64,000 nucleotides of DNA from Amycolatopsis methanolica 239. GTDB lineage: Bacteria > Actinomycetota > Actinomycetes > Mycobacteriales > Pseudonocardiaceae. The position numbers and the translations under genes are program-made. Below, piece by piece: positions 48,161 to 64,000 of this stretch. The stretch lies in the NCBI RefSeq assembly GCF_000739085.1, contig NZ_CP009110.1:1860001-1924000 (forward strand). The letters are read 5' to 3'. A model generated the notes under the pieces. It searched no databases and was not told the origin of the DNA. It saw only the letters and a program-made list of their open reading frames with translations. The number at the start of each line of letters is the position of its first letter. The stretch's first letter is position 1.

Positions 48161-48366
48161 TCGCGGACTTCGTGGTGCTCGCGGTGGCGGGCGCCGCACT
48201 GCTGGCGATCGGACGGTGGGGCTGCCGCGCGGCGGCCGGGTGGGTCAGCCCGGCACTGCCGGAACCCGAGCGCCTGCGGCGCATCGGGAAACTGCGGGGG
48301 AGCGGACGCGCGCTCCAGGTCGTGGGCGTGGTGTTCGCGCTCGCCGCGGTGTGGACCCTCTGGTGA
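48157..48366 (+). CDS. Small two-helix membrane protein
   Basis: A 69-aa protein with two hydrophobic segments (about 2-18 and 51-68) separated by a charged loop (PEPERLRRIGKLRGSGR). No family recognised. ATG 48157 overlaps the foldase stop (ATGA), so it is the last gene of the mce operon; a longer frame from 48007 is not used because it runs inside the foldase gene. Confidence 0.65.
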   Translation: MIADFVVLAVAGAALLAIGRWGCRAAAGWVSPALPEPERLRRIGKLRGSGRALQVVGVVFALAAVWTLW

Positions 48367-48369
48367 CGG

Positions 48370-49606: not shown

Positions 49607-50551
49607 TCAGGCGTCGGCGGAAACTGCGGTGGTAACGGCGAAACCCGCCACCCACTCCGGCACCGGCTCGTAGAACCGGTAGTTCATCACGTACTTCCCG
49701 CGGGCCGCCATCGCGGCGTAGGCGGCGATCCAGGTCCGCACCTCGTGCGAGGAGTGTCCGGCCTGCCCGGCGAACCACTCGGTGCTCCAGGTGTCGACGA
49801 GCTGGAGTTCGCCTGTCGAAACCACGTCGAGGAACCGCTGGTCCCACTCCGGGTTGATCGGCTGCATCGACGACGTGCCTGCGGCCAGATCGAGGCCGGA
49901 AGCGATCACGCGGGCCTGTCGCCGGGCGCGCTCTTCGGGAGTCGGGTTGCGACCGTCGATCAGCCGGGCGGCAACCTCCGTTGTGGCGGTTTCCAGCTGC
50001 GGCACCGGCGGGTCGTGTGAGAGCCCGCCGGAGCCGAGGAATAGTACACGCTGCTCGTCGAGGTGTGCGCTCGCATGGCCGATTGCCGTGCCGAGCTGCC
50101 GGATGCGGCCGACGGGACAGAGCGGCACCGCGACCGAGTTGATGAAGACTGGGATGACGGGAACGCGGTCGAGCCCGCCGAACAGGAGCTGCAGCGGCTG
50201 GGAGAACCCGTGGTCGACGTACATCTTTTCGGACAACGCGACATCGATTCCGGCCGCCAGCACGTCCTTGGCCAGCATCCGTGCGGACTCGGCGACCGAA
50301 AGCTCGCCGGCCGGGGTTTCGTAGTCCCCGAGTGCGGTGGCCCTCGTCCCGATGCAGAACGGCGGCATCATGTCGTAGAAGAAGCCGTTGTAGTGATCGG
50401 GTGCGAAGAGTACCACGAGGTCGGGGTCGAATCCCGCGATGAAACTCCGCGCGTGTTCGAAAGCCGCCTCGACCCGCTCTTCTACGGCTTTCGCCGGACG
50501 GTTGAACCCGATCAGTGGCGAATGGGACAGGGCGCACACAGCAACGCTCAT
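49607..50551 (-). CDS. mhpB: Class III extradiol dioxygenase, 3-carboxyethylcatechol 2,3-dioxygenase type
   Basis: A 314-aa LigB-superfamily enzyme, the same length as E. coli MhpB and with its hallmark blocks: ALSHSPLIG (metal-site His near the N terminus), LFAPDHYNGFFYDMMPPFC, VDHGFSQPL with catalytic His114, FINSVAVP, and LFLGSGGLSHDPPVP with catalytic His179. MhpB opens 2,3-dihydroxyphenylpropionate (or the cinnamate analogue) with Fe(II) and O2. The promoter region carries the shared CTAGTATCTTAG site. Exact catechol specificity in this organism is inferred. Confidence 0.9.
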   Translation of the reverse strand: MSVAVCALSHSPLIGFNRPAKAVEERVEAAFEHARSFIAGFDPDLVVLFAPDHYNGFFYDMMPPFCIGTRATALGDYETPAGELSVAESARMLAKDVLAAGIDVALSEKMYVDHGFSQPLQLLFGGLDRVPVIPVFINSVAVPLCPVGRIRQLGTAIGHASAHLDEQRVLFLGSGGLSHDPPVPQLETATTEVAARLIDGRNPTPEERARRQARVIASGLDLAAGTSSMQPINPEWDQRFLDVVSTGELQLVDTWSTEWFAGQAGHSSHEVRTWIAAYAAMAARGKYVMNYRFYEPVPEWVAGFAVTTAVSADA

Positions 50552-50575: not shown

Positions 50576-50592
50576 TTCACCCTACTGGTGAA
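50576..50592. promoter_or_regulatory. Inverted repeat in the mhpB upstream region
   Basis: TTCACC-CTACT-GGTGAA, a perfect 6-bp inverted repeat with 5-nt spacer, directly adjacent to the GntR-type site. It could be a second operator or part of a composite site. Confidence 0.35.
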
Positions 50593-50594
50593 AC

Positions 50595-50612
50595 ATGCTA
50601 GTATCTTAGCAT
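50595..50612. promoter_or_regulatory. GntR-type operator copy 1 (mhpB)
   Basis: ATGCTAGTATCTTAGCAT, a near-palindrome 44 nt upstream of mhpB. It shares CTAGTATCTTAG exactly with the site at the Rieske operon and closely with the two other copies. Confidence 0.65.
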
Positions 50613-50654
50613 AACAGTCCTTGGTTTCAACGACGCGACGGAAAGGGACGTGGC

Positions 50655-51800
50655 ATGGCGGTGACCGGGAATCGAAGCAAAGGTACCCACCGGGCAGTGC
50701 GAAGGAGGGCGGGGAGACGTCACCGGCGTGACCCGGGCGTATACGCCGCGGTCGCACTCACAGGTGCGGTTGTACTCGCAGGGGGGATGCTGCTCGGCGA
50801 ACCCGCAACCGTCGAGCGGGCCACCCCCGCCACCGCGACGACCAGGTCTCCGGCGCAGCTGGAATCAGCGTCGCTATCCACGCTGGGGGCGGGACTCCTT
50901 GCGACAGTGCCCAATGTTGCGGTGCCGCAGCCGCTGGCAGCTTCGGCGGACCGCCGGCTCGGTGCCGCCACCGCGTCCGGTGCGGGCATTCCGGCAACGG
51001 TGCTCGATGCCTATCGCAGGGCCGAGGCCTCGCTCGGCCACGTGAGCCCGGGGTGTCACCTGACCTGGGCGCTGCTCGCGGGCATCGGCAAGGTCGAGTC
51101 GAACCACGCTCGCCACGGCGACGTCGACAAGGAAGGAACAATGGTCCGGCCGATCTACGGCCCCGCCTTGGACGGATCGCCGGGCTTCGCCAGGATTTTC
51201 GACGCGCGGAGCGGGCAATGGGCGAGGGCCGCCGGCCCGATGCAGTTCATCCCCTCGACCTGGCAGAAATGGGGCGCGGACGGATCCGGGGACGGCAAGG
51301 TGGAGGTACAGAATGTCTACGATTCCACGGAATCGGCCGGCCGGTATCTCTGCGCAGGCGGTCGAGATCTGAGCACCGGATCCGGCCTGCGGAGCGCCAT
51401 TCTCGGTTACAACCACTCCGAGGACTATCTGAACGAGGTCACCGGGTGGATGCGAGCTTATTCCACCGGTTGGTTCGCCGTGCCGGACCAGCTCGGGTAC
51501 GACGGTGAAGACCCGGTCTACACCGATAGCGTGGCGTACACCCCAGCCCGTCCAGCGGCGCGGCCGGAGCGTCCCCCGGCTGCCGGTGATGCTCCGGCCG
51601 CGCCCGCACCGTCCAGGCCCGCCCCCGCCGCACCGTCCAGGCCCGCCCCCGCCGCACCGGACGGCCCGCCCGCGCCATCGGCCACGTCCCCGGCCCCGGC
51701 GCCTGCCCCGATCGCCGGATTGCCGGAACCGTTGGACGGCGTCGTCGCGACGGCTGGTCAGGCGGTGGACGGGGTTCTCGGCTCGCTCGGCACGTCCTGA
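50655..51800 (+). CDS. Secreted lytic-transglycosylase-like protein with Pro/Ala repeats
   Basis: A 381-aa exported or membrane-anchored protein. A very basic N terminus (residues 1-28) precedes one hydrophobic segment (about 29-48). The transglycosylase domain (about 115-275) shows catalytic Glu148 in GIGKVESNH, GPMQFIPSTWQKWG and ILGYNHSEDYLNEV. The C-terminal third is low-complexity Ala/Pro/Ser, including an exact 24-bp tandem duplication (APSRPAPA twice). It cuts peptidoglycan in the cell wall by family inference. It shares a divergent intergenic region with mhpB but has no evident metabolic link to it. Confidence 0.85.
   Translation: MAVTGNRSKGTHRAVRRRAGRRHRRDPGVYAAVALTGAVVLAGGMLLGEPATVERATPATATTRSPAQLESASLSTLGAGLLATVPNVAVPQPLAASADRRLGAATASGAGIPATVLDAYRRAEASLGHVSPGCHLTWALLAGIGKVESNHARHGDVDKEGTMVRPIYGPALDGSPGFARIFDARSGQWARAAGPMQFIPSTWQKWGADGSGDGKVEVQNVYDSTESAGRYLCAGGRDLSTGSGLRSAILGYNHSEDYLNEVTGWMRAYSTGWFAVPDQLGYDGEDPVYTDSVAYTPARPAARPERPPAAGDAPAAPAPSRPAPAAPSRPAPAAPDGPPAPSATSPAPAPAPIAGLPEPLDGVVATAGQAVDGVLGSLGTS
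51606..51658 (+). repeat. 24-bp direct tandem repeat within the transglycosylase gene
   Basis: Two exact copies (51606-51629 and 51630-51653) plus 5 bases of a third encode APSRPAPA twice. Likely to vary in copy number between strains by slippage. Confidence 0.8.
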
Positions 51801-51806
51801 ACCCCT

Positions 51807-51856
51807 GTGACGATTGATGGCGCCGCCCCGGCAGGGACGGCGCCATCAATCGTCAC
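51807..51856. terminator. Perfect 19-bp stem bidirectional terminator
   Basis: GTGACGATTGATGGCGCCG at 51807-51825 is followed by a 12-nt loop and its exact reverse complement at 51838-51856. It lies between the convergent transglycosylase and aldolase genes, 6 nt and 44 nt from their stops. Confidence 0.7.
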
Positions 51857-51900
51857 GCGGGCCCGGCCGCGCCACATCCGAGTACGGCGCCGCGCCGGTC

Positions 51901-52887
51901 TCAGGAGTCCTGGGCACGGACTTCGCCGACGAGCCTGCGCCAGCGGCGGCCGTTCTCGCGCGCGCCTTCGACGTAGGGGCCGGGAACGACGTGATACGGC
52001 GGGCGTGCGGGCCCGGCGGTGACATAGCCGGCCTCGTCGAAACGGACCTTCTCGAGGGGGATGTTGTACTTGGAGAACTCGGGAAAGTTCGTCCTGGCGA
52101 GGAACGGTTCGTAGGTCCACTCGATCCGGCGGGTGAGGTGCCGCGCCGTGCCGACGTCTCCGGCCCGGATCGCGTCGCGCAGGGCGAGCACGGGCTCCGG
52201 ACCGCACAAGGCGCTGCTGCTCCAGCAGCCGAGCGCCGTTTCCGGGTGCAGCGTGTGCGCCGCGAGCCAGTCGCTCTCCAGTGGCAGCAACCGGAGCCGG
52301 CCGCCGACCGCTGCCATGTCCGCGCCGAATTTCGGGGTGATCGCGATGTACTTCGCGCCGATGATCTGGGGTACGCCGGCGAGTTCGGCGTAGGCTGCTG
52401 ACGGAATCGGGCCCTTGAACGCCTCGGGGTTGTCGTAGAGGACGATCGCCATGTCGGGGAAGAGGCCGGCGACGCCGCGGTAGAACGCGATCAGCGTGTC
52501 GGCACCGAGCTCGCTCCACATCGGACGGCCGAGCATGACGCCGCGTACGCCGAGGCTCTGCAGGAAACGGATCCGCTCGACCGTGTCCCTCGTGTTGGAG
52601 GCAGTAGCCCCGACGAACAACGGGAGGTCCGGAGCGGTGTCCGAAACCGCGTCCGCGACGCACGCGGCGAAGGCCTGCCACTCGGCCAGCGTCAGGGTCG
52701 CCATCTCGCCGAGCGTCCCGTTGGTGATGATCCCGTCCACACCGTCGGCGACGAGCGCGCGGATCATCCGATCGGATTCGCGGAGGTCTACGGTGTCGCT
52801 TGCGGTGAGTGCGGACGCGCCGGGCAGTGCCGGGGTTGGCGTGACGGCGATGACCCCACGCAGGTCGTCGACACCGAACTTCTGCAT
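51901..52887 (-). CDS. DapA-superfamily hydratase-aldolase (NahE/PhdG-like)
   Basis: A 328-aa class I pyruvate aldolase. The Schiff-base lysine is Lys179 (IIGAKYIAIT), Tyr151 (LYDNPEAF) is the catalytic Tyr, and NGTLGEMATLT (about 56-66) corresponds to the GTFGECATLT loop of trans-o-hydroxybenzylidenepyruvate hydratase-aldolases. These enzymes add water and split an aryl-enoylpyruvate into an aryl aldehyde plus pyruvate after extradiol cleavage of fused-ring catechols. ATG 52887 has CGAGGAG upstream; a frame reaching 53103 is rejected. The VOC dioxygenase lies 94 bp upstream with a hairpin between them. Confidence 0.85.
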   Translation of the reverse strand: MQKFGVDDLRGVIAVTPTPALPGASALTASDTVDLRESDRMIRALVADGVDGIITNGTLGEMATLTLAEWQAFAACVADAVSDTAPDLPLFVGATASNTRDTVERIRFLQSLGVRGVMLGRPMWSELGADTLIAFYRGVAGLFPDMAIVLYDNPEAFKGPIPSAAYAELAGVPQIIGAKYIAITPKFGADMAAVGGRLRLLPLESDWLAAHTLHPETALGCWSSSALCGPEPVLALRDAIRAGDVGTARHLTRRIEWTYEPFLARTNFPEFSKYNIPLEKVRFDEAGYVTAGPARPPYHVVPGPYVEGARENGRRWRRLVGEVRAQDS

Positions 52888-52922
52888 CGCGTTCTCCTCG
52901 CGTTCACAGGAAATGGGCGATC

Positions 52923-52963
52923 CGCCCGGCAGGTCAGGTGGGGGCTGCCTTACCCGCCGGGCG
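52923..52963 (-). terminator. Hairpin between VOC dioxygenase and aldolase genes
   Basis: CGCCCGGC.GGT at 52923-52934 pairs with ACC.GCCGGGCG at 52952-52963 (12 bp, one mismatch, 17-nt loop). It may reduce read-through into the aldolase gene, or protect the upstream mRNA end. Confidence 0.4.
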
Positions 52964-52981
52964 ACCAGGGCTTCGGGGACT

Positions 52982-53857
52982 TCAGGAAGCGTGGCCGAAC
53001 GACTCAGGCGGCTGCAGGCCCCACGGGCTGAACGCCTTCGGGAAGTCGTCCCACACCACCGGGTCGTTGCGACGTACGCGCGGCATCTCAGCCGACAGCT
53101 CATAGCGGTTGCCAGCGGCCCAGAAGTAGGTGTAGACGTTGCCGCCCACGCCGTGCCGGCCCGGTCCGACCTCGATCGGCACGCCGTGCCGGGCGAGTTC
53201 GTCGGCAGCCAGTTTGAGGTGGTCGAACGACTCCATCCCGAGCGCGTAGTGGTGCAGCGACTTCCCGGCCTCGGGCGTGGAGATGATCGCGATGTCGTGG
53301 TGCAGCGTGCTGGCCCGGCACCAGGCCGCGCCGATCACCCCGGGTGCCGGGGCGAAGATGTCGGACACCTGAAAGTCCAGCAACTCGACCAGGAAGTCCA
53401 CCAGCGGCTTGGGATCCCGTGCTTGGACAGTGAGGTGGTCGAAGTCCAGCGCGCGGATGCCGCCGCGGTGAGGTGCTTTCGACGGGTGGAGGTACTGCGG
53501 CCCGGTCGAGAGCACCGCGAGTTCCATGCTGTGCCCGGAAGGCGCTTGGAACTGCAGGGACCGAACCACGCCGGGGTGTTCATCGGTGCGGGTTTCGGTC
53601 GCGACACCGGCTTCGGCCAGACGCGTCGCGTAGTGGTCGAGGTCGGCGACGTCGTCAACACGTAGTGCGAACCGCCGGACACCGGTCCCACCGGCGGTCA
53701 GGACCAGGTCGCAGCCGCCGTCGATGCCGACGGAGAGCCGCACCGCGCCGTCGGCGCGGCCGAGTTCCCGCATGCCCAGGACGTCGGTGTGGAAGCCGAT
53801 CGCTTCACCGAGGTCGGCGACGGCGAGTTCGGCGTGGGCCACCTGTGAAATACCCAT
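52982..53857 (-). CDS. Type I extradiol ring-cleavage dioxygenase (VOC family)
   Basis: A 291-aa two-domain vicinal-oxygen-chelate enzyme. In the C-terminal domain the three Fe(II) ligands can be placed at His141 (DFDHLTV), His213 (SFDHLKL) and Glu253 (NRYELSAEM); His187 and Tyr204 near LHHYALGM are the usual second-sphere residues. This is the fold of catechol 2,3-dioxygenases such as BphC and TesB. ATG 53857 gives the standard N terminus (QVAHAELAVADL). The upstream cupin gene ends 7 bp before it, so the genes are co-transcribed. Confidence 0.88.
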   Translation of the reverse strand: MGISQVAHAELAVADLGEAIGFHTDVLGMRELGRADGAVRLSVGIDGGCDLVLTAGGTGVRRFALRVDDVADLDHYATRLAEAGVATETRTDEHPGVVRSLQFQAPSGHSMELAVLSTGPQYLHPSKAPHRGGIRALDFDHLTVQARDPKPLVDFLVELLDFQVSDIFAPAPGVIGAAWCRASTLHHDIAIISTPEAGKSLHHYALGMESFDHLKLAADELARHGVPIEVGPGRHGVGGNVYTYFWAAGNRYELSAEMPRVRRNDPVVWDDFPKAFSPWGLQPPESFGHAS

Positions 53858-53864
53858 CGGTGGG

Positions 53865-54341
53865 TCAACTCCTGTCCATGTTGTCGTAGGGGATGTTGCC
53901 GGCGCTTTCCCGCCGGTTGATGCCGAGGGCATCGAGCTGTCGCGAGTTCTCGACGAGGATCATGCGAACTCGCCCGGTGCCGTCGTTGTAGTGCCGGTGC
54001 CAGACCCACGGCGGGGTGTAGACGAAGTCCCCGGCCGACCACCGCAGCGTCTTCGGCCCGATTTCGGAATAGCCGCTGCCCTCGATCACGCAGTGCACGG
54101 ACTCGTGCACATGGCGCTGGAGGTCCGTCGCCGTGCCGGCGGGGATCTCCTGCAGGTAGAACTCCATCGACTTCGCCGGGATGTCCGTGAGGACGCCGAC
54201 CTTACTGGGGTTGCCGGTTACGTCCTCGCCGAGCCACCGGGCACTCGCCGAGCGGGTGACCAGGTGCTCCGGCATCGATCGTTCAGGGGCGTAGTCCTTC
54301 ATCTCGTGGAGCTTGTGCATCCACTGATCGAAATTCGTCAT
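53865..54341 (-). CDS. Cupin-domain protein
   Basis: A 158-aa single-cupin protein. The two cupin motifs are visible: HVHESVHCVIEGSGYSEIG (with metal-binding His/His/Glu-type residues) and GDFVYTPPWVWHRHYND (final His). Such proteins in degradation clusters act as dioxygenases, isomerases or, like gentisate-type cupins, ring-cleavage enzymes; the small size suggests an accessory or isomerase role. ATG 54341 with GGAG 8 nt upstream; GTG 54350 is the alternative. It lies 15 bp after the SDR gene on the same strand. Confidence 0.8.
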   Translation of the reverse strand: MTNFDQWMHKLHEMKDYAPERSMPEHLVTRSASARWLGEDVTGNPSKVGVLTDIPAKSMEFYLQEIPAGTATDLQRHVHESVHCVIEGSGYSEIGPKTLRWSAGDFVYTPPWVWHRHYNDGTGRVRMILVENSRQLDALGINRRESAGNIPYDNMDRS

Positions 54342-54355
54342 GGTTCTCACTCCAG

Positions 54356-55120
54356 TCAGGTCGCGGTCATTCCACCGTCGACTACGTGGGTCTGGCCGGT
54401 CTGGAACCCGGCGAGCTCCGAGCAGAGATGGGTCACGAGCTCACCGATCTCCTCGGGACGCCCCCACCGCCCGACGGGGAGTTCGTCCGCGAGTTGCCGT
54501 CGCTCCAGTTCTTCGGTCGGCAAACCCGCGGCGGCCGCGCGCGCCGCCGCGAGGGAACGTCGCCGCGGCGTGTCGATGTGCGCGGGGGCGATCACGTGCG
54601 TGGTGACGCCCTGCGGCGCGACCTCCGCGGCCAGCGACCGTGCCAGTGCGGCCACTCCCGCCCGCATCACATTGGACAGGTGCAGCAGCGGCAACGGCTT
54701 GACCACGCCGACCGAGGTGACGTAGATCAGCCGTCCCCACCCGGCCGCGGACATCCCAGGCAACACCGCGTTGGTCAACGAGATCGCGCTGTCCAGGACG
54801 AGCCGGTAGGCCGAATCCCAGTCGTGCGCTGACAGTTCCGTGGCCTTCGCCGCTCGGGTGCCGCCGGTGTTGGACACCAGGATGTCGATCCCGCCGAGCG
54901 TTGCGCGCGCGGCTTCGGCCGCCGCGGCCGCGGCGCCGGGCTGGGTGAAGTCCGCGATGGCCCAGCCCGCCGCACCGACCTTCCGCGCGACGTCGCCTGT
55001 GTGCGGTCCGGTTCCCGTGATGAACACTTCGGCCCCGCCCGCTCGCAGCGACGTCGCGATCGCCGTGCCGAGCCCGCTCGACCCGGCGGTCACCAGCGCC
55101 CGGCGACCGTGCGCCGTCAT
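54356..55120 (-). CDS. Atypical SDR lacking the Tyr-Lys catalytic pair
   Basis: A 254-aa Rossmann-fold protein. The cofactor motif is TAGSSGLGTA (about 11-20) and NTGGT replaces NNAG. Catalytic Ser136 in VTSVGV is present, but the YxxxK pair is replaced by Ser149 and Arg153 (HLSNVMRAGV). This SNxxR pattern defines a known divergent SDR subgroup. C-terminal FQTGQTHVVDGGM is normal. Overlaps the HpaB-type gene stop (ATGA). Could be a cofactor-binding regulatory protein, or an oxidoreductase using another base. Confidence 0.85.
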   Translation of the reverse strand: MTAHGRRALVTAGSSGLGTAIATSLRAGGAEVFITGTGPHTGDVARKVGAAGWAIADFTQPGAAAAAAEAARATLGGIDILVSNTGGTRAAKATELSAHDWDSAYRLVLDSAISLTNAVLPGMSAAGWGRLIYVTSVGVVKPLPLLHLSNVMRAGVAALARSLAAEVAPQGVTTHVIAPAHIDTPRRRSLAAARAAAAGLPTEELERRQLADELPVGRWGRPEEIGELVTHLCSELAGFQTGQTHVVDGGMTAT

Positions 55121-56595
55121 GCCGCCGCACCCTCCCCGGTACCGCCGGGCAGGACGCCGACTTCCCTGGTCGAGGTGGCTAGCAGCCCGTCGATGAGGCC
55201 CAGCGGCTCGGTCCAGTCGTACTGGTTGAACTGGGTGTTGATGCGGAGGAACAGAGGATCGCCCGCGTAGAACCGCTCGTAGAGCTCGTGCCGGCCGCCG
55301 AAGGCGGAGACCGCGAGATCGGCGGCGATCTTGTAGATCGCGATGCGGTCGAGGCTGTTCGTGTCGGGGCCGCGATAGAACCGGGCGACGTCCGCGGCGA
55401 TCGGCGAGTCGAACGCGCTCACATCGGCAGGCTGGTAGAGCAGGCCGCCGGCGAGGATCTGCTGCAGGATCTCCCGGACGCGTGGGTACCAGCGGTTCCC
55501 GGAGTTGCGGATCGCGTACAACGGCCGGACGTCGGGGAACAGGATGCCCTCGTCGTTGCGGTGCGCGCCCGCTTCCGCGGCAAGGACCGCGGCCCTGGTC
55601 AGCTCGATGTATGTGGTGATCTCGCCGAGCGCGTCACGGACCTGGGGAAACTGGTCGGTCTTGACGATCTCGGTCGCCCGCTTGGCGATGCCCGCCACGA
55701 ACTGGAGCTTGGCCAGCAGCCGGACCGAGGTCTGGACGCCGGTGAAGGCGTTGGAGTTGATCGCCCAGATGTTGTTGACCCGCTCGTAGTCCTGGTTGAT
55801 GAAGACACGTTCCCAGGGCACCAGAACGTCGTCGAACACGACCACGGCGTCCATCTCGTCGAACCGGCTGGAGAGCGGGTGGTCGAAGCCGTTTCCGCCG
55901 CCGAACGGTTCGCGGCAGATCAGCCGGACACCCGGTGCGTCGGTGGGTATGGCGAACGCGATGGCGTAGGGTTTCTCCTCGGCCCCGTACTTCCGGAGCG
56001 AGAAGGGCCAGACGAGAATCTCGTCGGAGTAGGGCGCGGCCGTGGCGAGCATCTTCGCGCCGCTCACCACGATGCCGTCCGAGGTTTCGCGCTTGACGCC
56101 GAGGTAGGTGTAGGGATCGGGCTGTTGCGACGGCGGCTTCGAACGGTCGACCGGCGGGTCAGCCAAGGCGTGGGACAGGAAAAGATCGTTGTCCCGCACG
56201 TACTCGTAGTACGCGCGCACCCGGTCGGCTCCATCACCGAAGAACTCGGCGTTGGCGTTCCATGCCACCAGCATCGCGCTGACGAAGTCCGTGCTGCGCC
56301 CCATCATGCCGAGGCTGGAGTCCGCCCACTCCTTGTGCATGAACCGGCGGAGCTCGAGGTCTTCGGCCGTGCGGGGCATCAGGAACTGCACGCCGGCCTT
56401 GCGGCCGTCGTTTTCGGGCGAGAAGAGCATGCTGTCGGTCTTGAACTGGAGGTCGTAGAGGCGGGCGATTTCGGCCGCGGCGCCGGACGTGGCCTTGTGC
56501 CCGGCCACGTCGGTGATCTTCTCGGCCCCAACCCACAGCTCAGGGCTGTGCGTGCGGAGCCGATCGAGGTACGCGGCGCCGTTTCGTGCGGTCAT
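55117..56595 (-). CDS. HpaB-type flavin-dependent monooxygenase (4-hydroxyphenylacetate 3-hydroxylase family)
   Basis: A 492-aa oxygenase component of a two-component phenol hydroxylase. The start TARNGAAYLDRLRTHSPELWV, FMHKEWADSSLGMMGRSTDF, GVKRETSDGIVVSGAKMLAT, FDDVLVPWERVF and the C-terminal FYAGDP match the HpaB family, which ortho-hydroxylates phenols using free reduced FAD. The flavin reductase partner (HpaC) is not encoded in the window. ATG 56595 overlaps the hydrolase stop (TGATG). A frame running back to 57102 is antisense-like noise. It would convert a phenol into a catechol for the nearby VOC dioxygenase. Confidence 0.9.
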   Translation of the reverse strand: MTARNGAAYLDRLRTHSPELWVGAEKITDVAGHKATSGAAAEIARLYDLQFKTDSMLFSPENDGRKAGVQFLMPRTAEDLELRRFMHKEWADSSLGMMGRSTDFVSAMLVAWNANAEFFGDGADRVRAYYEYVRDNDLFLSHALADPPVDRSKPPSQQPDPYTYLGVKRETSDGIVVSGAKMLATAAPYSDEILVWPFSLRKYGAEEKPYAIAFAIPTDAPGVRLICREPFGGGNGFDHPLSSRFDEMDAVVVFDDVLVPWERVFINQDYERVNNIWAINSNAFTGVQTSVRLLAKLQFVAGIAKRATEIVKTDQFPQVRDALGEITTYIELTRAAVLAAEAGAHRNDEGILFPDVRPLYAIRNSGNRWYPRVREILQQILAGGLLYQPADVSAFDSPIAADVARFYRGPDTNSLDRIAIYKIAADLAVSAFGGRHELYERFYAGDPLFLRINTQFNQYDWTEPLGLIDGLLATSTREVGVLPGGTGEGAAA

Positions 56596-57452
56596 CACTT
56601 TCCTTTCAAGAACCTGATGTGGATGTCGTTGAACTGGTCCGGCTTCTCCCACTGCGGCCAGTGGCCCGCGCCCTCGAGGACCTCGAGGCGACTTCCGGGG
56701 ATCAGCTCCTCCAGGAGCGCGGCTTCTTCGACCGAAGCCGTCGGATCGTGGTCGGTCCACAGCAGAAGGGTCGGCGAGACGATGCGGTTGCACCACTGCG
56801 ACGACCAGACGTACGGCCGCCGGTGTTCCCAGTCCTGCACCGCGAGGATGTTGCGCATCGCGGTCTCGAACCCCGGCTGAGCGTAGATCCGCAGCCGCAG
56901 GTCCACGAGCTCGTCGGTGACAAGGCTCTTGTCGTGGAAGAGCCACTCGACCCTGGTGCGCACGCTCTGGCGGGTTGCCTCGCGGACCGCGCTCATGCTG
57001 GATTCCTTCAGCCTGGCCATCACCTCCGGCTTGTTCGTGATGTTGCCCGGCGTGTTGAGCACCAGCCGGTCGATCCGGGCTGGGTGGTGCGCCGCGGCCC
57101 ACGCCGCCACCCAGCCACCGAGCGACTCACCGGAGAGATGGGCCTTCTCTATGCCCAGCGCGTCCAGGACCGCGATCAGGTGGTCACTGAGGTAATCGAT
57201 CGTGTAAGGCCGGTCGGGCTTGGCCGAATGTCCGTGCCCCGCCATGTCGTAGACGATGACTCGGAATTCTTTCGCCAGGTCCCGGATGTTGCGGGAATAC
57301 GCCTCCAGGTGCCCGCCAGTGCCGTGCACCATGACCAGCGCCGGACCGGCGCCCGCCTCCACCACCCGGGTGGCGATGCCGGCCGCGTCCACGATCCGCT
57401 GGCGCAGTTCGGCGCCCGCCAAATCGCCCCAGATGCTTATGTGCTGCTCCAC
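56595..57452 (-). CDS. Meta-cleavage product C-C bond hydrolase (alpha/beta hydrolase)
   Basis: A 285-aa alpha/beta hydrolase of the MhpC/BphD/HsaD group. The oxyanion MVHGTGGHLE, YDMAGHGHS, nucleophile Ser110 (LSGESLGGW), acid Asp in LLLWTDHDPTAS and His in EGAGHWPQWE are all present. These enzymes hydrolyse the vinylogous 1,5-diketone made by extradiol dioxygenases. GTG 57452 has GGAAGGAA upstream. It is the first gene of the operon hydrolase-HpaB-SDR-cupin-VOC (-aldolase), whose promoter carries a GntR-type site. Confidence 0.88.
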   Translation of the reverse strand: MEQHISIWGDLAGAELRQRIVDAAGIATRVVEAGAGPALVMVHGTGGHLEAYSRNIRDLAKEFRVIVYDMAGHGHSAKPDRPYTIDYLSDHLIAVLDALGIEKAHLSGESLGGWVAAWAAAHHPARIDRLVLNTPGNITNKPEVMARLKESSMSAVREATRQSVRTRVEWLFHDKSLVTDELVDLRLRIYAQPGFETAMRNILAVQDWEHRRPYVWSSQWCNRIVSPTLLLWTDHDPTASVEEAALLEELIPGSRLEVLEGAGHWPQWEKPDQFNDIHIRFLKGK

Positions 57453-57488
57453 GGCATTCCTTCCTGTCGGGACGTCCTCTCATATTGG

Positions 57489-57505
57489 CATACTAGAATC
57501 TCAGG
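57489..57505. promoter_or_regulatory. GntR-type operator copy 2 (hydrolase/HpaB operon)
   Basis: CATACTAGAATCTCAGG, 37 nt upstream of the hydrolase GTG. It shares CTAGWATCTYRG with the copies at mhpB, gntR and the Rieske operon, and overlaps a possible promoter (TTGATC with CAATAT on the minus strand). Confidence 0.65.
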
Positions 57506-57554
57506 ATCAAGCCATGTTTCGGCAAGGTTGTCTTCGTCAGAGGGCGAAAAAGTA

Positions 57555-57590
57555 GAACGGGTGTCATGGCCGTGGTCATGACACCCGTTC
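57555..57590 (-). terminator. Intrinsic terminator of the GntR gene
   Basis: GAACGGGTGTCATG pairs perfectly over 14 bp with 57577-57590 across an 8-nt loop; on the minus strand the stem is followed by TACTTTTTCG, giving the T-rich tract of a rho-independent terminator 14 nt past the GntR stop. Confidence 0.75.
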
Positions 57591-57603
57591 AGGCGAGTGG
57601 TGG

Positions 57604-58239
57604 CTACACTTCCACGAACCTCCAGAACCGTGAGACGTGCTCCTCCATCAGCCTGCCTGCCCGTTCCGCGTCCCGGTGCTTGATCGCCTCGGTGATCTCG
57701 GCGTGCTCGGCCTGCGCCTGCGCCAGGTCGGTGCTCAACCGGTTCTTCTGGAGGTAGAAGTCGTTGAGGTCCCAGGTATCCATGGCCAGTTCGGTCAGCC
57801 GCTGGTTGCCACTGGCAGCCAGTACGGCGGAGTGGAAGTCTCGGTTGGCTCCGGCGAAGGCGAGTGCGTCGCGCCGTTTGGCTGGGCCGATGCCACGCAT
57901 CAGCATGTCATCGATCTCGGCCAGCTGGGCGTCGGTGGCAGTGAGTGCCGCGAGCCGTGCGCCGGCTCCTTCGAGGATACCCGCTACGGCAAAGTGGTCC
58001 CGCACCTTGCGTTCGTCCGGAACTGTCACCTGGCATCCGACCTGGGGAATGACCGAGATGAATCCGGCCGCGGCCAGTCGCATCACCGCGTCCATCACTG
58101 GCCTGCGGCTCACGCCGAACTCCGCCGCGAGGTCGTAGGTGCTCAGGATTTCGCCGAACTGATGGCGCCCCTCGAGCAGCTGGGTGAGGAGCGCTTGGTA
58201 GATCTGGTCTGTTTTGGTGACTGACGCGATCATAGGCAT
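57604..58239 (-). CDS. GntR-family (FadR/FCD) transcriptional regulator
   Basis: A 211-aa regulator. The N-terminal winged helix (about 10-72) shows IYQALLTQLLEGRHQFGEIL, TYDLAAEFGVSRRPVMDAVMRL and AAGFISVIPQVGCQV; the C-terminal FCD helical domain binds a carboxylate ligand through metal-site residues including Asp/His in ANRDFHSAVLAASGN and the terminal EEHVSRFW. It lies between the two halves of the aromatic island, and a copy of the shared operator is 55-70 nt upstream of it, indicating autoregulation. Probable repressor released by a pathway acid. Confidence 0.9.
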   Translation of the reverse strand: MPMIASVTKTDQIYQALLTQLLEGRHQFGEILSTYDLAAEFGVSRRPVMDAVMRLAAAGFISVIPQVGCQVTVPDERKVRDHFAVAGILEGAGARLAALTATDAQLAEIDDMLMRGIGPAKRRDALAFAGANRDFHSAVLAASGNQRLTELAMDTWDLNDFYLQKNRLSTDLAQAQAEHAEITEAIKHRDAERAGRLMEEHVSRFWRFVEV

Positions 58240-58293
58240 GGACTATCCGGCCCTTCGGTGCGGGAAGGTCGGTGCTGGCGTACTGTCGATCAC

Positions 58294-58310
58294 GCCGAGA
58301 TTCTAGCGTG
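58294..58310. promoter_or_regulatory. GntR-type operator copy 3 (gntR autoregulation)
   Basis: On the minus strand reads CACGCTAGAATCTCGGC, sharing CTAGAATCTC with copy 2 and fitting the CTAGWATCTYRG consensus, about 55-70 nt upstream of the GntR start. Confidence 0.6.
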
Positions 58311-58403
58311 TCAATGTCGAGCAGGGGGCGCCGAAGCGAAAGCCGCGGTGCGGTGGCCGGCTCGTTGAGCCGTGAAGCAGGGGCGCGCCGTCCGGGGCGG
58401 CAC

Positions 58404-58435
58404 TGAAGCCGGAGCGGGCTCCCGCTCCGGCTTCA
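58404..58435 (-). terminator. Perfect 15-bp stem hairpin after the SCP2-like gene
   Basis: TGAAGCCGGAGCGGG at 58404-58418 and its exact complement at 58421-58435 (2-nt nominal loop). Located 32 nt after the stop of the SCP2-like gene; it separates that gene from gntR. Confidence 0.6.
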
Positions 58436-58466
58436 GGCATGCCGTGGCCGCCGCCTGCGCCCTCGG

Positions 58467-58865
58467 TCAGTCCACCGACCAGTCGGTGTCGTCGATCTGG
58501 CCGAACATCTTCATGGCGGCCTCGAGGCCGGGCAGGTTGGCGAGCGCCACCGACATGGAACCGCGGAACTTGACCTTCCGGGTGACCATGGCTTTGGCGG
58601 CGGGCAGTTCGCCTTCGCCGAGACGCTGCCAGGTCTCCACCTTGGCGGTCAGCACGAAGTCCGGCTTCACGCCTTCGGTCGGGGCGCCGGCGCGCACGAC
58701 CTCGCCGGCGTTCACCTCGATCTGGCCCGCGCGGCTCTCGTTCTCCGCGAGGCGGTATTCGACGACCATGCTCAGCTTCTTGAGGCCCTCGCGTGTTGCG
58801 TCCGTGGTGTTCCAGAGCTCGGCGTAGGACTTCATCCACTCCGGCGACAGGACGGGTGTTCCCAT
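58467..58865 (-). CDS. SCP2/sterol-carrier-like protein
   Basis: A 132-aa soluble protein. The pattern of a central strand region (LSMVVEYRLAENESRAGQIEV, then FVLTAKVETWQRLGEGELPA), followed by an amphipathic C-terminal helix (ALANLPGLEAAMKMFGQID), fits SCP2-like lipid or hydrophobic-ligand binding domains found in actinobacterial steroid and aromatic clusters. ATG 58865 follows AAGGAGAG by 7 nt. It is divergent from the Rieske operon and shares its operator, so it probably belongs to the same regulon; it may deliver a hydrophobic substrate. Confidence 0.7.
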   Translation of the reverse strand: MGTPVLSPEWMKSYAELWNTTDATREGLKKLSMVVEYRLAENESRAGQIEVNAGEVVRAGAPTEGVKPDFVLTAKVETWQRLGEGELPAAKAMVTRKVKFRGSMSVALANLPGLEAAMKMFGQIDDTDWSVD

Positions 58866-58909
58866 GGTGCGCTCTCCTTCGGTTCGCCTCCGCGGCGGAC
58901 AACTGGGGT

Positions 58910-58937
58910 TTGACAACGACGCTGAAGATACTAGTAT
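58910..58937 (+). promoter_or_regulatory. Candidate promoter of the Rieske operon
   Basis: TTGACA at 58910-58915, a 16-nt spacer and TAGTAT at 58932-58937. The -10 box lies inside operator copy 4, so regulator binding would block RNA polymerase. Confidence 0.5.
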
Positions 58938-58940
58938 CTT
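58925..58940. promoter_or_regulatory. GntR-type operator copy 4 (Rieske operon/SCP2)
   Basis: AAGATACTAGTATCTT is a perfect 16-bp palindrome; extended to the right it reads CTAGTATCTTAG, identical over 12 bases to copy 1 at mhpB. It lies 59 nt from the SCP2-like start and 70-93 nt from the Rieske operon starts. Confidence 0.7.
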
Positions 58941-59010
58941 AGAAAGTCAGTCAAGCGGTCGCCGCGGTCCCGACTCATTGTCGGCCCGCCATTCTTTGGA
59001 GGAGACAAAG

Positions 59011-59040
59011 ATGTCCGACGCCAAGGTGGTCACATGTTGA
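59011..59040 (+). CDS. Nine-residue leader ORF overlapping the Rieske alpha start
   Basis: ATG at 59011 with an excellent GGAGGAGA ribosome site opens a frame MSDAKVVTC that stops at TGA 59038-59040. The oxygenase ATG (59034) lies inside this ORF in another frame and has only a poor ribosome site of its own. Either this is a translational-coupling leader, or the true oxygenase N terminus is MSDAKVVT joined to LRNELRQ through a frameshift. I cannot decide between them from one sequence. Confidence 0.4.
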   Translation: MSDAKVVTC

Positions 59041-60422
59041 GGAATGAACTCCGGCAGATCCTCGAGAAGGGTTTGCACGACGTAGAGTCCGACTGGACCG
59101 TTCCGGCCGCGATCATCAACGACCCGGAGATGCACGACGCCGAGCGCGAGCGCGTCTTCGGCCGCTCATGGGTTTTCCTCGCCCACGAGAGCGAAATCCC
59201 GGAACGCGGTGACTACGTCGTCCGGTACATCTCGGAAGACCAGTTCATCGTCTGCCGGGACGAAGACGGCCAAGTCCGTGGGCACCTGAACAGCTGCCGC
59301 CACCGCGGCATGCAGGTGTGCCGCGCCGAAATGGGGAACGCGTCCCACTTCCGCTGCCCCTACCACGGCTGGACCTACAACAACAAGGGCAGTCTCGTCG
59401 GTGTGCCAGCCGGGCGAGAGGCGTACGGCAACAAACTGGACAAGTCCTTGTGGCAGCTCAAGCCGGTTCCGAAACTGGACACCTACAAGGGGTTGATCTT
59501 CGGCTGCCTCGACCCAGACGCCCAATCCCTCGACGACTACCTCGGGGACATGAAATTCTACCTCGACATCGTGCTGGACCGAAGTGACGCCGGCCTGGAA
59601 GTCGTCGGCGCCCCGCAGCGCTGGGTCGTCGACGCGAACTGGAAGCTCGGCGCTGACAACTTCATCGGCGACGCTTACCACACGATGATGACCCACCGGT
59701 CCATGGTAGAACTCGGGCTGGCCCCGCCGGACCCGAAGTTCGCGCTCTACGGCGAGCACGTGCACACCGAGCACGGCCACGGCCTCGGCATCATCGGCCC
59801 GCCGCCGGGCATCCCGCTGCCCGAGTTCCTGGGCATGCCGGAGAACATCGTCGAGCAGCTGCAGCGCCGGCTTTCGCCGGAGCAGGTCGAGGTGTTCCGG
59901 CCGGTCGCGTTCATCCACGGCACCGTGTTCCCGAACCTGTCGATCGGCAACTTCCTGATGTCGAAGGACCACGTCTCGCCGCCGACGTCGTTCCTCACGC
60001 TCCGGCTGTGGCACCCGCTCGGCCCGGACAAGATGGAGATCATGTCCTTCTTCCTCGTCGAGAAGGAAGCGCCGGACTGGTACAAGGAAGAGAGCTACCA
60101 GGCCTACGTGCGCACGTTCGGGATTTCCGGAGCCTTCGAACAGGATGACGCCGAGAACTGGCGCAGCATCACCAGGGTGCTGGGTGCCCAGTACGCCAAG
60201 ACGATGGAGCTCAACTACCAGATGGGCCGCGGCGTCTACGAGCCCGATCCCGACTGGCCCGGCCCTGGCAACGCGTTCCCGATGGACTACGCCGAAGCCA
60301 ACCAGCGCAACTTCATGGAGTACTGGATGCAGCTGATGGTTACGGACCCGGCTTCGCACACCGGGAACGGCAAGGTCTCCGACGAGGCCGCGGCCGAAGC
60401 GCTGGCACGGGCGGAGGGCTAG
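59034..60422 (+). CDS. Rieske aromatic-ring-hydroxylating dioxygenase, alpha subunit
   Basis: A 462-aa oxygenase. The Rieske [2Fe-2S] cluster is held by Cys88-His90 (SCRHRGMQVC) and Cys108-His111 (CPYHGW). The mononuclear iron ligands His216 and His221 occur in NFIGDAYHTMMTHRS, with bridging Asp208 (GADNF). Length and blocks match the toluene/biphenyl/phenylpropionate dioxygenase group, which makes a cis-dihydrodiol. The beta subunit follows 5 bp later and the dihydrodiol dehydrogenase two genes on. Ferredoxin and reductase are not encoded nearby. See the leader ORF at 59011 for the start question. Confidence 0.92.
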   Translation: MLRNELRQILEKGLHDVESDWTVPAAIINDPEMHDAERERVFGRSWVFLAHESEIPERGDYVVRYISEDQFIVCRDEDGQVRGHLNSCRHRGMQVCRAEMGNASHFRCPYHGWTYNNKGSLVGVPAGREAYGNKLDKSLWQLKPVPKLDTYKGLIFGCLDPDAQSLDDYLGDMKFYLDIVLDRSDAGLEVVGAPQRWVVDANWKLGADNFIGDAYHTMMTHRSMVELGLAPPDPKFALYGEHVHTEHGHGLGIIGPPPGIPLPEFLGMPENIVEQLQRRLSPEQVEVFRPVAFIHGTVFPNLSIGNFLMSKDHVSPPTSFLTLRLWHPLGPDKMEIMSFFLVEKEAPDWYKEESYQAYVRTFGISGAFEQDDAENWRSITRVLGAQYAKTMELNYQMGRGVYEPDPDWPGPGNAFPMDYAEANQRNFMEYWMQLMVTDPASHTGNGKVSDEAAAEALARAEG

Positions 60423-60427
60423 GACCG

Positions 60428-60946
60428 ATGACCACCGCAACGGAGATCACCGACGCCACCGTGCGTGAAGTCACCGAGTGGCTCTTCACCGAAGCCGAAC
60501 TGCTTGACGCGGGCAAGTACCGCGAGTGGCTCGACGTGGTGGCCGAGGACCTGTCGTACGTCGTCCCGCTGCGGGTCACGCGCGAACGTGAGGCCGACAC
60601 GGACATCGTCGAGGGGATGACCCTGATGGACGACGACTGGGACTCGATGGAAATGCGCGTCCTGCGCCTGGAAACCGAGTACGCGTGGGCGGAGGACCCG
60701 CCGTCGCGCTCACGGCACTTCGTGACCAACGTCCGGGTCGCCGCCGGCGAGGCGGCGGACGAGGTGGCCGTCAAGTCGAACCTGCTGCTGTACCGCACTC
60801 GCGGTGACGTCGCGACGTTCGACATCCTCTCCGGCGAGCGCCACGACGTGCTCCGCCGGGTGGCCGGCGGCTACCGGCTCGCCAGGCGGGTCGTCGTGCT
60901 CGACCAGACCACCATCATGACGCACAACCTCGCTCTGATCATGTGA
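60428..60946 (+). CDS. Rieske dioxygenase beta subunit
   Basis: A 172-aa NTF2-fold subunit, normal length for the family. VREVTEWLFTEAELLDAGKY, then REWLDVVAEDLSYVVPLRVT at the start and SRSRHFVTNVRV in the middle are conserved blocks (the RSRH.VTNV pattern is diagnostic). It builds the alpha3-beta3 hexamer with the alpha subunit. Translation is likely coupled to the alpha gene. Confidence 0.92.
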   Translation: MTTATEITDATVREVTEWLFTEAELLDAGKYREWLDVVAEDLSYVVPLRVTREREADTDIVEGMTLMDDDWDSMEMRVLRLETEYAWAEDPPSRSRHFVTNVRVAAGEAADEVAVKSNLLLYRTRGDVATFDILSGERHDVLRRVAGGYRLARRVVVLDQTTIMTHNLALIM

Positions 60947-60959
60947 CGGAGGCAGTTCG

Positions 60960-61232
60960 GTGACCATCATCCACAACGAGGGCCAGGACCCGATCATTCA
61001 GATAGCCAACGAGTTCACGGTGATCCAGGTCAGCTACACCAGCACCGGCCAGCGCGAACGCCTCCTCGTCAGCTCACCCCGGCTCGGGTTCCAGACCCTG
61101 CTCGACCCGCTGCAGCTGGAAAGCCTCACCTGGCAGCCACCCGAAATGTACTCGAAGCTGCTCGACACCCCGTACGGACCCGGGACGGAGCTCAACGCGC
61201 GCCCGCTGTCGGCTCTGCTCGGAAAGGACTGA
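60960..61232 (+). CDS. Uncharacterised 90-aa protein of the Rieske operon
   Basis: A 90-aa protein with no Cys ligand set, no signal peptide and no membrane helix. It shows TVIQVSYTSTGQRERLLVSS, DPLQLESLTWQPPEMYSKLL and TPYGPG. I do not recognise a characterised family. Its place between the beta subunit and the dehydrogenase is where a ferredoxin often sits, but it cannot bind an Fe-S cluster. GTG start with ACGGAGG about 10 nt upstream. Likely an accessory factor of the oxygenase. Confidence 0.75.
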   Translation: MTIIHNEGQDPIIQIANEFTVIQVSYTSTGQRERLLVSSPRLGFQTLLDPLQLESLTWQPPEMYSKLLDTPYGPGTELNARPLSALLGKD

Positions 61233-61237
61233 TTCCC

Positions 61238-62053
61238 ATGGGTTTCCTGGACGGGAAGGTCGCACTGGTCACCGGCGGGGGATCGGGTATCGGCCGGGCC
61301 GTGGTCGACCTCTACGTGCGAGAGGGCGCGAAGGTCGGCATCCTCGAGATCTCGCCGGAGAAGGCGCGGGACCTGCAGGAGAAACTGCCCGTGGACGCCG
61401 TGGTCGTGACGCAGGGCGACGCGACTTCCATGTGGGACAACGAACGCGCCGTCGCGGACGTGACGGAAGCGTTCGGCTCGCTGACCACCGTGGTCTGCGC
61501 GGTCGGGGTGTTCGACTACTTCACCGAGATCCCGCAGCTGCCGAAGGACAAGATCGGCGAGGCGTTCGACCAGCTCTTCGCCGTCAACGTGAAGAGCAAC
61601 CTGCTCACCGTGAAGGCGGCGCTGGAACAGCTGATCGAGAACCGCGGGCAGATCATCCTCACCATTTCCAACGCCGGGTTCTACCCCGGCGGCGGCGGTC
61701 CGCTCTACGTGTCGTCGAAGTTCGCCGTTCGCGGTCTGGTGACCGAGCTGGCGTACGAACTTTCGCCGCACGTACGGGTCAACGGCGTGGCCCCCGGCGG
61801 CACGATCACGGACCTGCGGGGGATTCCCGCGCTGGCGAACGAAGGTCAGTCGCTGAAGGACGTGCCGGACATCGAAGGCCTGATCAAGGGGATCAATCCC
61901 CTGGGCGTGGTCGCCCAGCCGGACGACCACTCCTGGGCCTACGCGTTCCTCGCAGCCAAGGAACGCGCGCCCGCGGTCACCGGCACGATCATCCACAGCG
62001 ACGGCGGGCTGGGCGTGCGCGGGATGACGCGCATGGCGGGGCTCGAGCCCTGA
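61238..62053 (+). CDS. cis-2,3-dihydrodiol dehydrogenase (BphB/HcaB-like SDR)
   Basis: A 271-aa [13 protein letters not shown] (about 12-21), catalytic Ser in [19 protein letters not shown] Tyr/Lys pair, and [16 protein letters not shown] are typical of cis-dihydrodiol dehydrogenases such as BphB, HcaB and NahB, where the [12 protein letters not shown] sequence is characteristic. It rearomatises the dioxygenase product to a catechol with NAD+. Starts 5 bp after the 90-aa gene; ATG with GGAAAGG upstream. Confidence 0.9.
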
Positions 62054-62138: not shown

Positions 62139-62396
62139 ATGAAGACGCTGGTGGCTACCGAGGAAACCCAGGCCGATCCGGCCACGGCGCTCTGGATCTG
62201 CGATGTCTGCCAGGACGTGTACGACCCCCGCCTCGGCGACCCCGAAGGCGGGATCGAGCCCGGTACGCCGTTCGCCGACATCCCGGACGACTGGGTCTGC
62301 CCGGTGTGCGGGGCGCGCAAGAAAGAGTTCCGGATGCTTGCACCAGGTGACGAGTACGACGTCGAGGACGACGCATATGCGGGAGCGCAGGGGTGA
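62139..62396 (+). CDS. Rubredoxin-like electron-transfer protein
   Basis: An 85-aa protein. Four cysteines are arranged [10 protein letters not shown] (about 20-29) and [13 protein letters not shown] (about 52-64), the rubredoxin Fe(Cys)4 pattern, with IPDDWVCP matching the conserved loop. It has an 18-residue N-terminal and a 20-residue acidic C-terminal extension compared with minimal 53-residue rubredoxins. AAAGGAGG precedes the ATG. Its stop overlaps the fused ETF start (GTGA), so the two are translated together and are probable redox partners. Confidence 0.9.
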
Positions 62397-64000
62397 GCAC
62401 GCCCGGCCGCGTTCTCGTCTGTCTCAAGCAGGTCCCGGTTCCTGGGCGGGGAGTCTTCGACGAACGTACGAAACGGATCCGCCGGGACGAGGACCAGGCC
62501 GTCACCAACCCACCGGACTTGCATGCGCTGGCGCAGGCGATCGCCCTGCGGGAGGAGACCGGCTGGGAGGTGGTGGCCGTGACGATGGGGCCGCCCGTGG
62601 CCGCGGAGACCCTGCTTGATGCGCTGCGCCGGGGTGCCGACCGTGCCGTGCACCTGGTCGATCGCCGCTTCGCCGGTGCCGACACCCTGGCGACGGCCCG
62701 CGCGCTCGCCAGGCTCGTCGAACGGGAGCGCCCGGAGTTGGTGCTCACCGGCTGGCGGACAGTCGACGGTGGCACAGCCCAGGTCGGCCCGCAGCTCGCG
62801 GAGCTGGCCGAGTTCCCGCAGCTGACCCAGGCCACGAACCTGCGGGCCGGCGACGGTGTCCTCACCGCAGACGTGGAAACCGACGTCGGCCGGGAAGCCT
62901 GGACCGTCGCGTTGCCCGCGGTGGTCGCCGTCGGACGGGGTGCCGAACCGCCGTGGGTGACCGAGGCAGACCTGTCGGCCGTGGAAACGCTCACCGCCGA
63001 GGAGCTCGGGGGAGGACCGCGGGAGTTCGGTACCCGGGGTTCACCGACCTTCGTGGCCGAGATCCGGCATGACGTCCGCGAACGCCGGGCCGAGCACGTC
63101 GAGGCCGGGTTCGACACTGCGAAACTGCTGGAGGCGGCCTTCGCGCCGCTCGAGCATGAGGCCGAAGTCGTCGTGCGCACCCCGTTGCGCGAGATCTGGA
63201 CGGTCGCCGAGCCGCTTCCCGGCGGTGGCCTCCACCCAACGAGTCTCGAAGCGCTGGCCTGCGCCCGCTCGGTCGCCGGTGACCTCCGAGCCACGATCGT
63301 GGCGGTGCTGCCGTGCGACCAGCCGCACGACCTCCCGCGAGTGCTCTACGCGCACGGGGCCGACCGGGTGCTGGTGCTGCGTGGCACTGAGCCGGCGGAA
63401 TATCGCACGGATCTGGTCACCGACGCACTGACCACGGCGATCGCCGCACATGCGCCGTTCGCTGTGATCGCGCCCTTCAGCGCCCGTGGTCGCGACTACG
63501 CCCCGCGCGTCGCCGCCCGGCTCGGGCTCGGTCTGACCGGAGACTTCACCGCGCTGGAGGTCCGCGACGCGGACACCGACGATCCCGACCTGCTGTGGCT
63601 CAAACCGGCACTGTCGGCGGACGTGCTCGCCCCGGTGATCGCGCACTCCACACCATCGATGGGCACGCTGCGGCCCGGTTCCTTCACGGCCCGAGCCGTT
63701 CGCGACCAGCGTGAGCCGAACGTCGAGGTCGCCGGTGGTACCGCGATCGGTGATTCTTCGTGCACCGCGGTCGAGCGCCAGGTCCAGCTCCTGGACGGCC
63801 CGCGACTCGCCGCGGCCCGGCTGGTCATCGGGCTTGGGCCGGGCCTGGGCACCGGTGCCCACCGCGTCGCCGAACGGGTCGCCGCGACACCGGGCATCGC
63901 GCTCGCCGCGACGTCGGCCGCGGTCGCCGCGGGAGAGTTGCCCCCGCAACTCGAGATCGGGCCACTTGCCCGCAGCATCGCGCCCGCGGTCTACCTCGGG
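62393..64000 (+). CDS. Fused electron-transfer flavoprotein beta-alpha (partial at window end)
   Basis: An open frame of 536 codons that runs off the end. Residues 1 to about 225 are ETF-beta ([12 protein letters not shown] start; [45 protein letters not shown]). Residues about 255 onwards are ETF-alpha ([47 protein letters not shown]), reaching the FAD domain start [13 protein letters not shown] and [18 protein letters not shown]. The order beta then alpha in one chain replaces the usual two genes. GTG overlaps the rubredoxin stop. It shuttles electrons from flavin dehydrogenases, or in reverse to rubredoxin. Confidence 0.85.

Follow-up and report, generated by a model that had tools for sequence, protein, structure and literature searches.

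What keeps the parts of a catabolic gene cluster under common control when they are spread over several transcription units, and might one regulator be enough? The question is raised by the window studied here, a 64,000-nucleotide stretch of Amycolatopsis methanolica 239 (NZ_CP009110.1, positions 1,860,001 to 1,924,000), in which copies of one short site recur at the promoters of a naphthalene-type cluster. We think it very likely, judging from the sequence, that four such sites are operators of a GntR/FCD protein encoded in the cluster itself (57604-58239), which would repress four gene sets and be released by a carboxylated intermediate of the pathway. These sets would be mhpB, the hydrolase-hpaB-SDR-cupin-VOC-hydratase-aldolase operon, the gntR gene itself, and a divergent pair, the SCP2 and naphthalene-dioxygenase operons. 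What we have computed is that the sites exist, that this genome has them nowhere else, that they are conserved and follow transcription units, and that they occur together with the GntR gene. A common operator would provide a concrete list of genes in one pathway, ring-cleavage candidates included, and a short sequence with which binding could be tested directly and naphthalene sensors built.

One site at four promoters

The original prediction held that four sites share one motif with no further copy in the window, and an exact scan with the 12-mer CTAGWATCTYRG found just four, at 50598-50609, 57493-57504 and 58931-58942 on the plus strand and at 58295-58306 on the minus strand. They also lie where they had been placed, upstream of mhpB, the hydrolase/HpaB operon, the GntR gene and the divergent SCP2/Rieske operons. 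A scan of the complete genome had been asked for, occurrence at background frequency being named as the outcome that would speak against the idea; in all 7,237,391 bases the exact 12-mer occurs only in these same four places, inside an 8.3-kb stretch, so the prediction came through. Elsewhere in the genome there are seven matches at one mismatch, and in the 3-kb stretches around them the 20-bp matrix described below reaches best scores of 1.4 to 12.2; the sites from which it was built score 26.7 to 36.5. In the window, 2000 patterns made by permuting the letters gave a mean of 0.009 matches and at most 1. The pattern is of course post hoc, derived from the sites themselves, and out-of-sample tests therefore weigh more.

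The operator, which on the opposite strand reads approximately RAGATWCTAGYRTSYY, is a 16-bp palindrome with CTAG at its centre. About the middle of CTAG, 71% of pairs are complementary (over 8 pairs); the middle of the 12-mer, tried as the main symmetry axis, was rejected at 54%, the value of the next axis. Three of the four sites agree with the extended form that begins CAYRCTAG; it fails at 58931, which has GATACTAG. The perfect 16-bp palindrome said to cover a predicted -10 box is indeed there: AAGATACTAGTATCTT, at 58925-58940, covers TAGTAT (58932-58937), 16 bp after TTGACA (58910-58915). The four operators are as follows, with invariant columns counted over four lineages.

50592..50607, minus strand: operator 1, AAGATACTAGCATGTT on the minus strand; placed between the mhpB-like gene, which it precedes by 40 bp, and a divergent transglycosylase-like (SLT) gene; 15 of 16 columns invariant
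57487..57502, minus strand: operator 2, GAGATTCTAGTATGCC; within a promoter-like pair, TTGATC-N17-CAATAT, that precedes the hydrolase-hpaB-SDR-cupin-VOC-aldolase operon; 14 of 16 columns invariant
58297..58312, plus strand: operator 3, GAGATTCTAGCGTGTC; before the GntR gene, adjoining a TTGACA box; 16 of 16 columns invariant
58925..58940, no strand assigned: operator 4, AAGATACTAGTATCTT; common to the divergent SCP2 (minus) and Rieske (plus) operons; 15 of 16 columns invariant

How might such sites work? In the mechanism we propose, a GntR dimer would sit on the CTAG-centred palindrome, overlap or adjoin the core promoter and so block transcription, until a carboxylated pathway intermediate binds the FCD domain and GntR comes off. 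GntR binding to the sites, repression and the releasing ligand are all things that we infer, and a promoter-blocking repressor released by an intermediate is the simplest reading. The sign of GntR control is read from site positions, which leaves some room for an activator or dual regulator, but at the narAa, mhpB and hydrolase promoters the sites overlap a -10-like box or fall between the two boxes of a promoter-like pair, positions from which a bound protein is expected to obstruct RNA polymerase, and we consider this alternative unlikely. As for the ligand of the proposed repressor, the accessible part of PMC4988695 states that Rhodococcus naphthalene operons can be induced by naphthalene, by salicylate or by both, and that some operons of strain TFB are inducible by naphthalene or tetralin, not salicylate; these data lean towards an upstream intermediate, without settling the point.

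The operator in related clusters

Six syntenic copies of the cluster in the Pseudonocardiaceae, from Amycolatopsis sp. 2-2 (L022), Saccharomonospora sp. CUA-673 (L023), Sciscionella marina (L024), A. marina (L025), A. palatopharyngis (L026) and a further Amycolatopsis (G218), keep a site at all four promoters (24 of 24), never more than one mismatch away from the 12-mer. L023 to L026 are near-identical, so that the six copies amount to about three lineages beside the window, and column counts were therefore made on the window, L022, L025 and G218, dropping L023, L024 and L026; L022 contributes only 151 bp before the hydrolase gene (gap of 1.2 kb) and G218 about 110 bp before mhpB. In these alignments no variation is seen in 60 of 64 operator columns; of the flanking columns, 314 of 585 are invariant.

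Across 297 genomes of the family, GntR is found at 88% identity or more in five, which carry 4, 2, 4, 2 and 3 exact sites; of these 15, 14 lie inside the cluster. Two or more exact sites occur in all five of these genomes versus 2 of the 292 others (Fisher 1e-9, ignoring relatedness), and 24 of those others have any exact site at all. Beside the matches in these 24 genomes we found no cluster gene, except for one weak SDR match (tblastn at E 1e-5 with 20 window proteins, one locus of about 3 kb per genome, leaving out five further matches, four in G283 and one in G105). Searches for distant GntR relatives returned one of 397 genomes of the order (E 1e-38) and one of 396 of the phylum (E 1e-40), in each case the window's own genome. 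As side observations, G283 has five copies of CTAGAATCTTGG and no GntR match, possibly another repeated element, and in six genomes of genus g8 (L043, L044, L045, L047, L048 and L049) a conserved stretch, GATCACTAGAATCTCAGTGATGACGGAAGAG, surrounds the match, with no cluster gene adjoining.

The out-of-sample evidence comes from the matrix, built from 12 distinct Pseudonocardiaceae sites alone, with which we scanned the nar regions of eight Rhodococcus plasmids (L061, L063-L069) of ten found; GntR and HpaB are also present in all ten plasmids with NarAa at 80-90%. In every region the five best matches lie before gntR, before flavin reductase-mhpB, before hydrolase-hpaB, before rubredoxin, and between SCP2 and narAa (40 of 40), the fifth-best scores being 12.5-16.4 against a 95% level for that rank of 6.6-7.5 (200 column-shuffled matrices). 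For the 19.1-kb part of L061 (R. opacus B4), the six best matches are all in promoter zones, which make up 8.1% of its length, and none of 300 shuffled matrices places five of five there. On the whole 245-kb R. opacus B4 plasmid, ATNYTAGTATNYY, a pattern chosen afterwards, occurs only at the five promoter places, and its reversed control gives 0. The Rhodococcus arrangement differs: the aldolase gene lies behind narB (L061 23971-24957), flavin reductase comes before mhpB, and rubredoxin is a unit of its own. Because the operons have been rearranged and the sites are yet at their promoters, the operator follows transcription units.

Further afield, in Pseudarthrobacter phenanthrenivorans (pASPHE301), the three best matches are upstream of the cupin/aldolase operon (28.8), between SCP2 and narAa (14.1) and before the GntR gene (13.3), each above its shuffled 95% level (17.9, 13.1 and 11.1 for ranks 1-3). 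This plasmid is like the window in its SCP2/narAa/narAb/narB/narC order and in having sites at three promoters, and unlike it in having a GntR of no more than 31% identity and, in the stretch compared, no HpaB match.

These comparisons bear on two other explanations. Operator 1 might serve the divergent transglycosylase gene, not mhpB, given that it lies between them and that the pair is divergent in six of six Pseudonocardiaceae copies; this we regard as highly improbable, since the Rhodococcus flavin reductase-mhpB operon also has a top-ranked site in regions where tblastn finds no transglycosylase. That the repeats are chance, or functionless duplicated promoter pieces, gains a little from a motif pattern taken from the sites themselves. 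The exclusiveness within the genome, the invariant columns, the permuted patterns, the shuffled matrices and the Rhodococcus prediction leave it next to no probability, and a chance origin was rejected on the genome scan, the permuted patterns and the shuffled matrices.

One operator differs among the Pseudonocardiaceae. In L023 to L026 a further site, scoring 21.4 (about 4000-4020), stands directly before the flavin reductase gene, whereas in L022 and the window's genome that gene comes directly behind the ETF-like gene, with no site of comparable score there. Just beyond the window end in the latter, the flavin reductase-like gene (L059 205-768) shows at most an eroded operator remnant.

Which protein would read the operator

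57604..58239, minus strand: regulator of the GntR family, 211 amino acids long, with an FCD domain (Pfam GntR 2.4e-14, FCD 3.6e-24)

This protein has both parts expected of its class, an N-terminal winged helix-turn-helix (PF00392, 53.2 bits, cut-off 27) and a C-terminal FCD ligand domain (PF07729, 86 bits, cut-off 24.3), and is the sole cluster regulator found in both the Pseudonocardiaceae and Rhodococcus groups. It is 67-68% identical to the Rhodococcus GntR encoded beside hpaB, and its recognition-helix core, SRRPVMDA, is identical in the two Rhodococcus proteins aligned. The obvious competitor is a different regulator, for example the LuxR-GAF protein (48370-49530), whose gene is found beside mhpB in six of six Pseudonocardiaceae copies. 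However, the eight Rhodococcus regions, which hold both the sites and the GntR gene, give no match to it in a tblastn search at E 1e-4, and L062 gives none either; LuxR-GAF control was rejected on this ground, and binding by any different regulator seems to us very unlikely, although the absence bears on cluster regulators only and leaves room for one encoded elsewhere in the genome.

GntR-type regulators of Rhodococcus nar clusters, NarR1 and NarR2, are named in print (accessible parts of PMC5006600 and PMC11881993). The best match of NarR1 in the A. methanolica genome is the window GntR, at 35-36% identity, against the 67-68% shared with the other Rhodococcus GntR. An orthologue of NarR1 should also be followed by a gene for NarR2 (4-vinyl reductase), and a search for NarR2, run without a positive control genome, came up empty in the window, in the six copies and in the genome. 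We therefore rejected orthology with NarR1, and judged by identity the window GntR is its homologue, not its orthologue.

The FCD domain retains the Asp/His/His/His pattern, which we take to be the mark of metal-dependent, carboxylate-binding members. In this pattern, in its domain pair and in having a site before its own gene, the regulator resembles the FadR (FCD) subfamily; it departs from it in a CTAG-centred operator without TKGT/ACMA boxes and in residue 49, which is Met and in the PDB relative 7xp0 is Arg. According to the available text of PMC4494728, the equivalent FadR position is listed as a non-specific contact, so a link between Met49 and the operator is a suggestion only. The same source gives TKGT/ACMA boxes, 2-3 nt apart, as usual and not strictly defining for FadR-subfamily operators, with NanR and BioR as exceptions.

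A number of observations weigh against GntR control as we propose it. The sites read AGATWCTAGYRTS and do not contain the TKGT/ACMA boxes, and the palindrome is imperfect at three of the four. A simple promoter scan found no -35/-10 pair for gntR, and in L023 to L026 the mhpB promoter has a 6-bp deletion that breaks the -35 spacing. A GntR at 39-40% identity is encoded in five family genomes, of which one has one exact site and four have none, and on a Priestia plasmid with HpaB, hydrolase and GntR no matrix match rises above the shuffled background. The eight Rhodococcus regions are close relatives of each other, and NarR1, another GntR that Rhodococcus carries, could be the one that some of the sites there belong to. 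At up to two mismatches from CTAGWATCTYRG the window has 11 matches, the 4 exact ones and 7 with two mismatches each, a total reached by 7 of 100 shuffles; as this is not unusual, the case rests on the exact copies.

Taken against these points, promoter conservation, the Rhodococcus prediction and the shared GntR gene support the claim that one GntR regulator governs two extradiol dioxygenases, a Rieske system and a flavin monooxygenase. GntR-type control of nar genes has already been proposed, so the finding is partly foreseen and in principle not surprising, while being well supported and testable. The literature searched, including the accessible parts of PMC5006600 and PMC11881993, gave no operator sequence for it; that search was partial, and prior publication is possible. 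A broader evolutionary picture, on which we find ourselves evenly balanced, is that of a GntR/FCD repressor clade with a changed recognition helix (Met49) and a CTAG-centred operator in place of the GT/AC type, whose one code would have kept the whole naphthalene pathway (upper nar plus the HpaB/MhpB/hydrolase meta-cleavage branch) together in Pseudonocardiaceae and Rhodococcus through the cutting and rejoining of operons, each transcription unit keeping or gaining a site.

The genes of the cluster and its borders

The remaining genes are as follows; percentages are identities to Rhodococcus counterparts.

49607..50551, minus strand: MhpB-like class III extradiol dioxygenase (LigB; NCBIfam NF009910 472 bits, cut-off 291)
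51901..52887, minus strand: hydratase-aldolase, trans-o-hydroxybenzylidenepyruvate type (PhdJ/NahE/NarC; PDB 6dan 282 bits, 6dao 252 bits; 76%)
52982..53857, minus strand: VOC-type extradiol dioxygenase, catechol 2,3-dioxygenase-like, under the curated cut-off
53865..54341, minus strand: cupin protein (family search)
54356..55120, minus strand: SDR dehydrogenase (family search)
55117..56595, minus strand: HpaB-type flavin monooxygenase, oxygenase component (family searches)
56595..57452, minus strand: alpha/beta hydrolase, nearest to meta-cleavage-product hydrolases but under their cut-offs
58467..58865, minus strand: SCP2 protein, counterpart of Rhodococcus nar orf7 (82%)
59034..60422, plus strand: naphthalene dioxygenase alpha subunit, NarAa type (PDB 2b1x, Rhodococcus naphthalene dioxygenase, 459 residues, 925 bits, next PDB match 384; 84% to R. 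opacus B4)
60428..60946, plus strand: dioxygenase beta subunit, NarAb type (80% to R. opacus B4)
60960..61232, plus strand: conserved nar-operon protein of 90 amino acids, without a Pfam match (76%)
61238..62053, plus strand: cis-dihydrodiol dehydrogenase, NarB type (85% to R. opacus B4)
62139..62396, plus strand: rubredoxin, start at ATG, reading frame scanned from 62091 (69%)
62393..64000, plus strand: large FAD-binding/ETF-like protein, continuing beyond the window end (65% to the Rhodococcus FAD-binding protein)

Which pathway would these genes serve? Counterparts of NarAa, NarAb and NarB stand in one operon, in the order of R. opacus B4 (plasmid pROB02), and since these are joined by SCP2, rubredoxin and hydratase-aldolase matches, the set is, judged by its genes, a nar (naphthalene) type cluster of the actinobacterial kind. 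The likeness to the Rhodococcus nar clusters covers NarAa, NarAb, NarB, NarC, SCP2 and rubredoxin (69-85%). The differences are that A. methanolica has one GntR and no NarR2 match, and that its hydratase-aldolase gene is the final gene of the hpaB operon, whereas in Rhodococcus it lies behind narB. That gene had been overlooked in the original prediction, whose list of hydrolase, HpaB, SDR, cupin and VOC genes for this operon is otherwise right. A review describes Rhodococcus strains as usually showing only three structural nar genes (accessible part of PMC5006600).

The second branch (hydrolase, HpaB, SDR, cupin and VOC) is 77-82% identical to Rhodococcus counterparts, and MhpB 51%. In L024 the gene series continues with flavin reductase, hydratase, acetaldehyde dehydrogenase and aldolase, named from reading the translations and not by family search. 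With them a meta-cleavage route would be complete; what the second branch would do chemically is deduced from its genes.

Some neighbours deserve a brief mention. At the cluster border (43495-49530) lie MCE, MmpL, SurA-like and LuxR-GAF genes, with no exact operator among them; LuxR-GAF is kept throughout the six copies; three show SurA and one shows MCE/MmpL, the remaining stretches ending earlier. The transglycosylase-like gene (50655-51800) lies inside the cluster and is less well conserved, at 58-68%, the other proteins of the cluster reaching about 80-98%. The 90-amino-acid protein (60960-61232) is present in all eight nar operons searched (the six copies, L061 and L062), at 64-96% identity.

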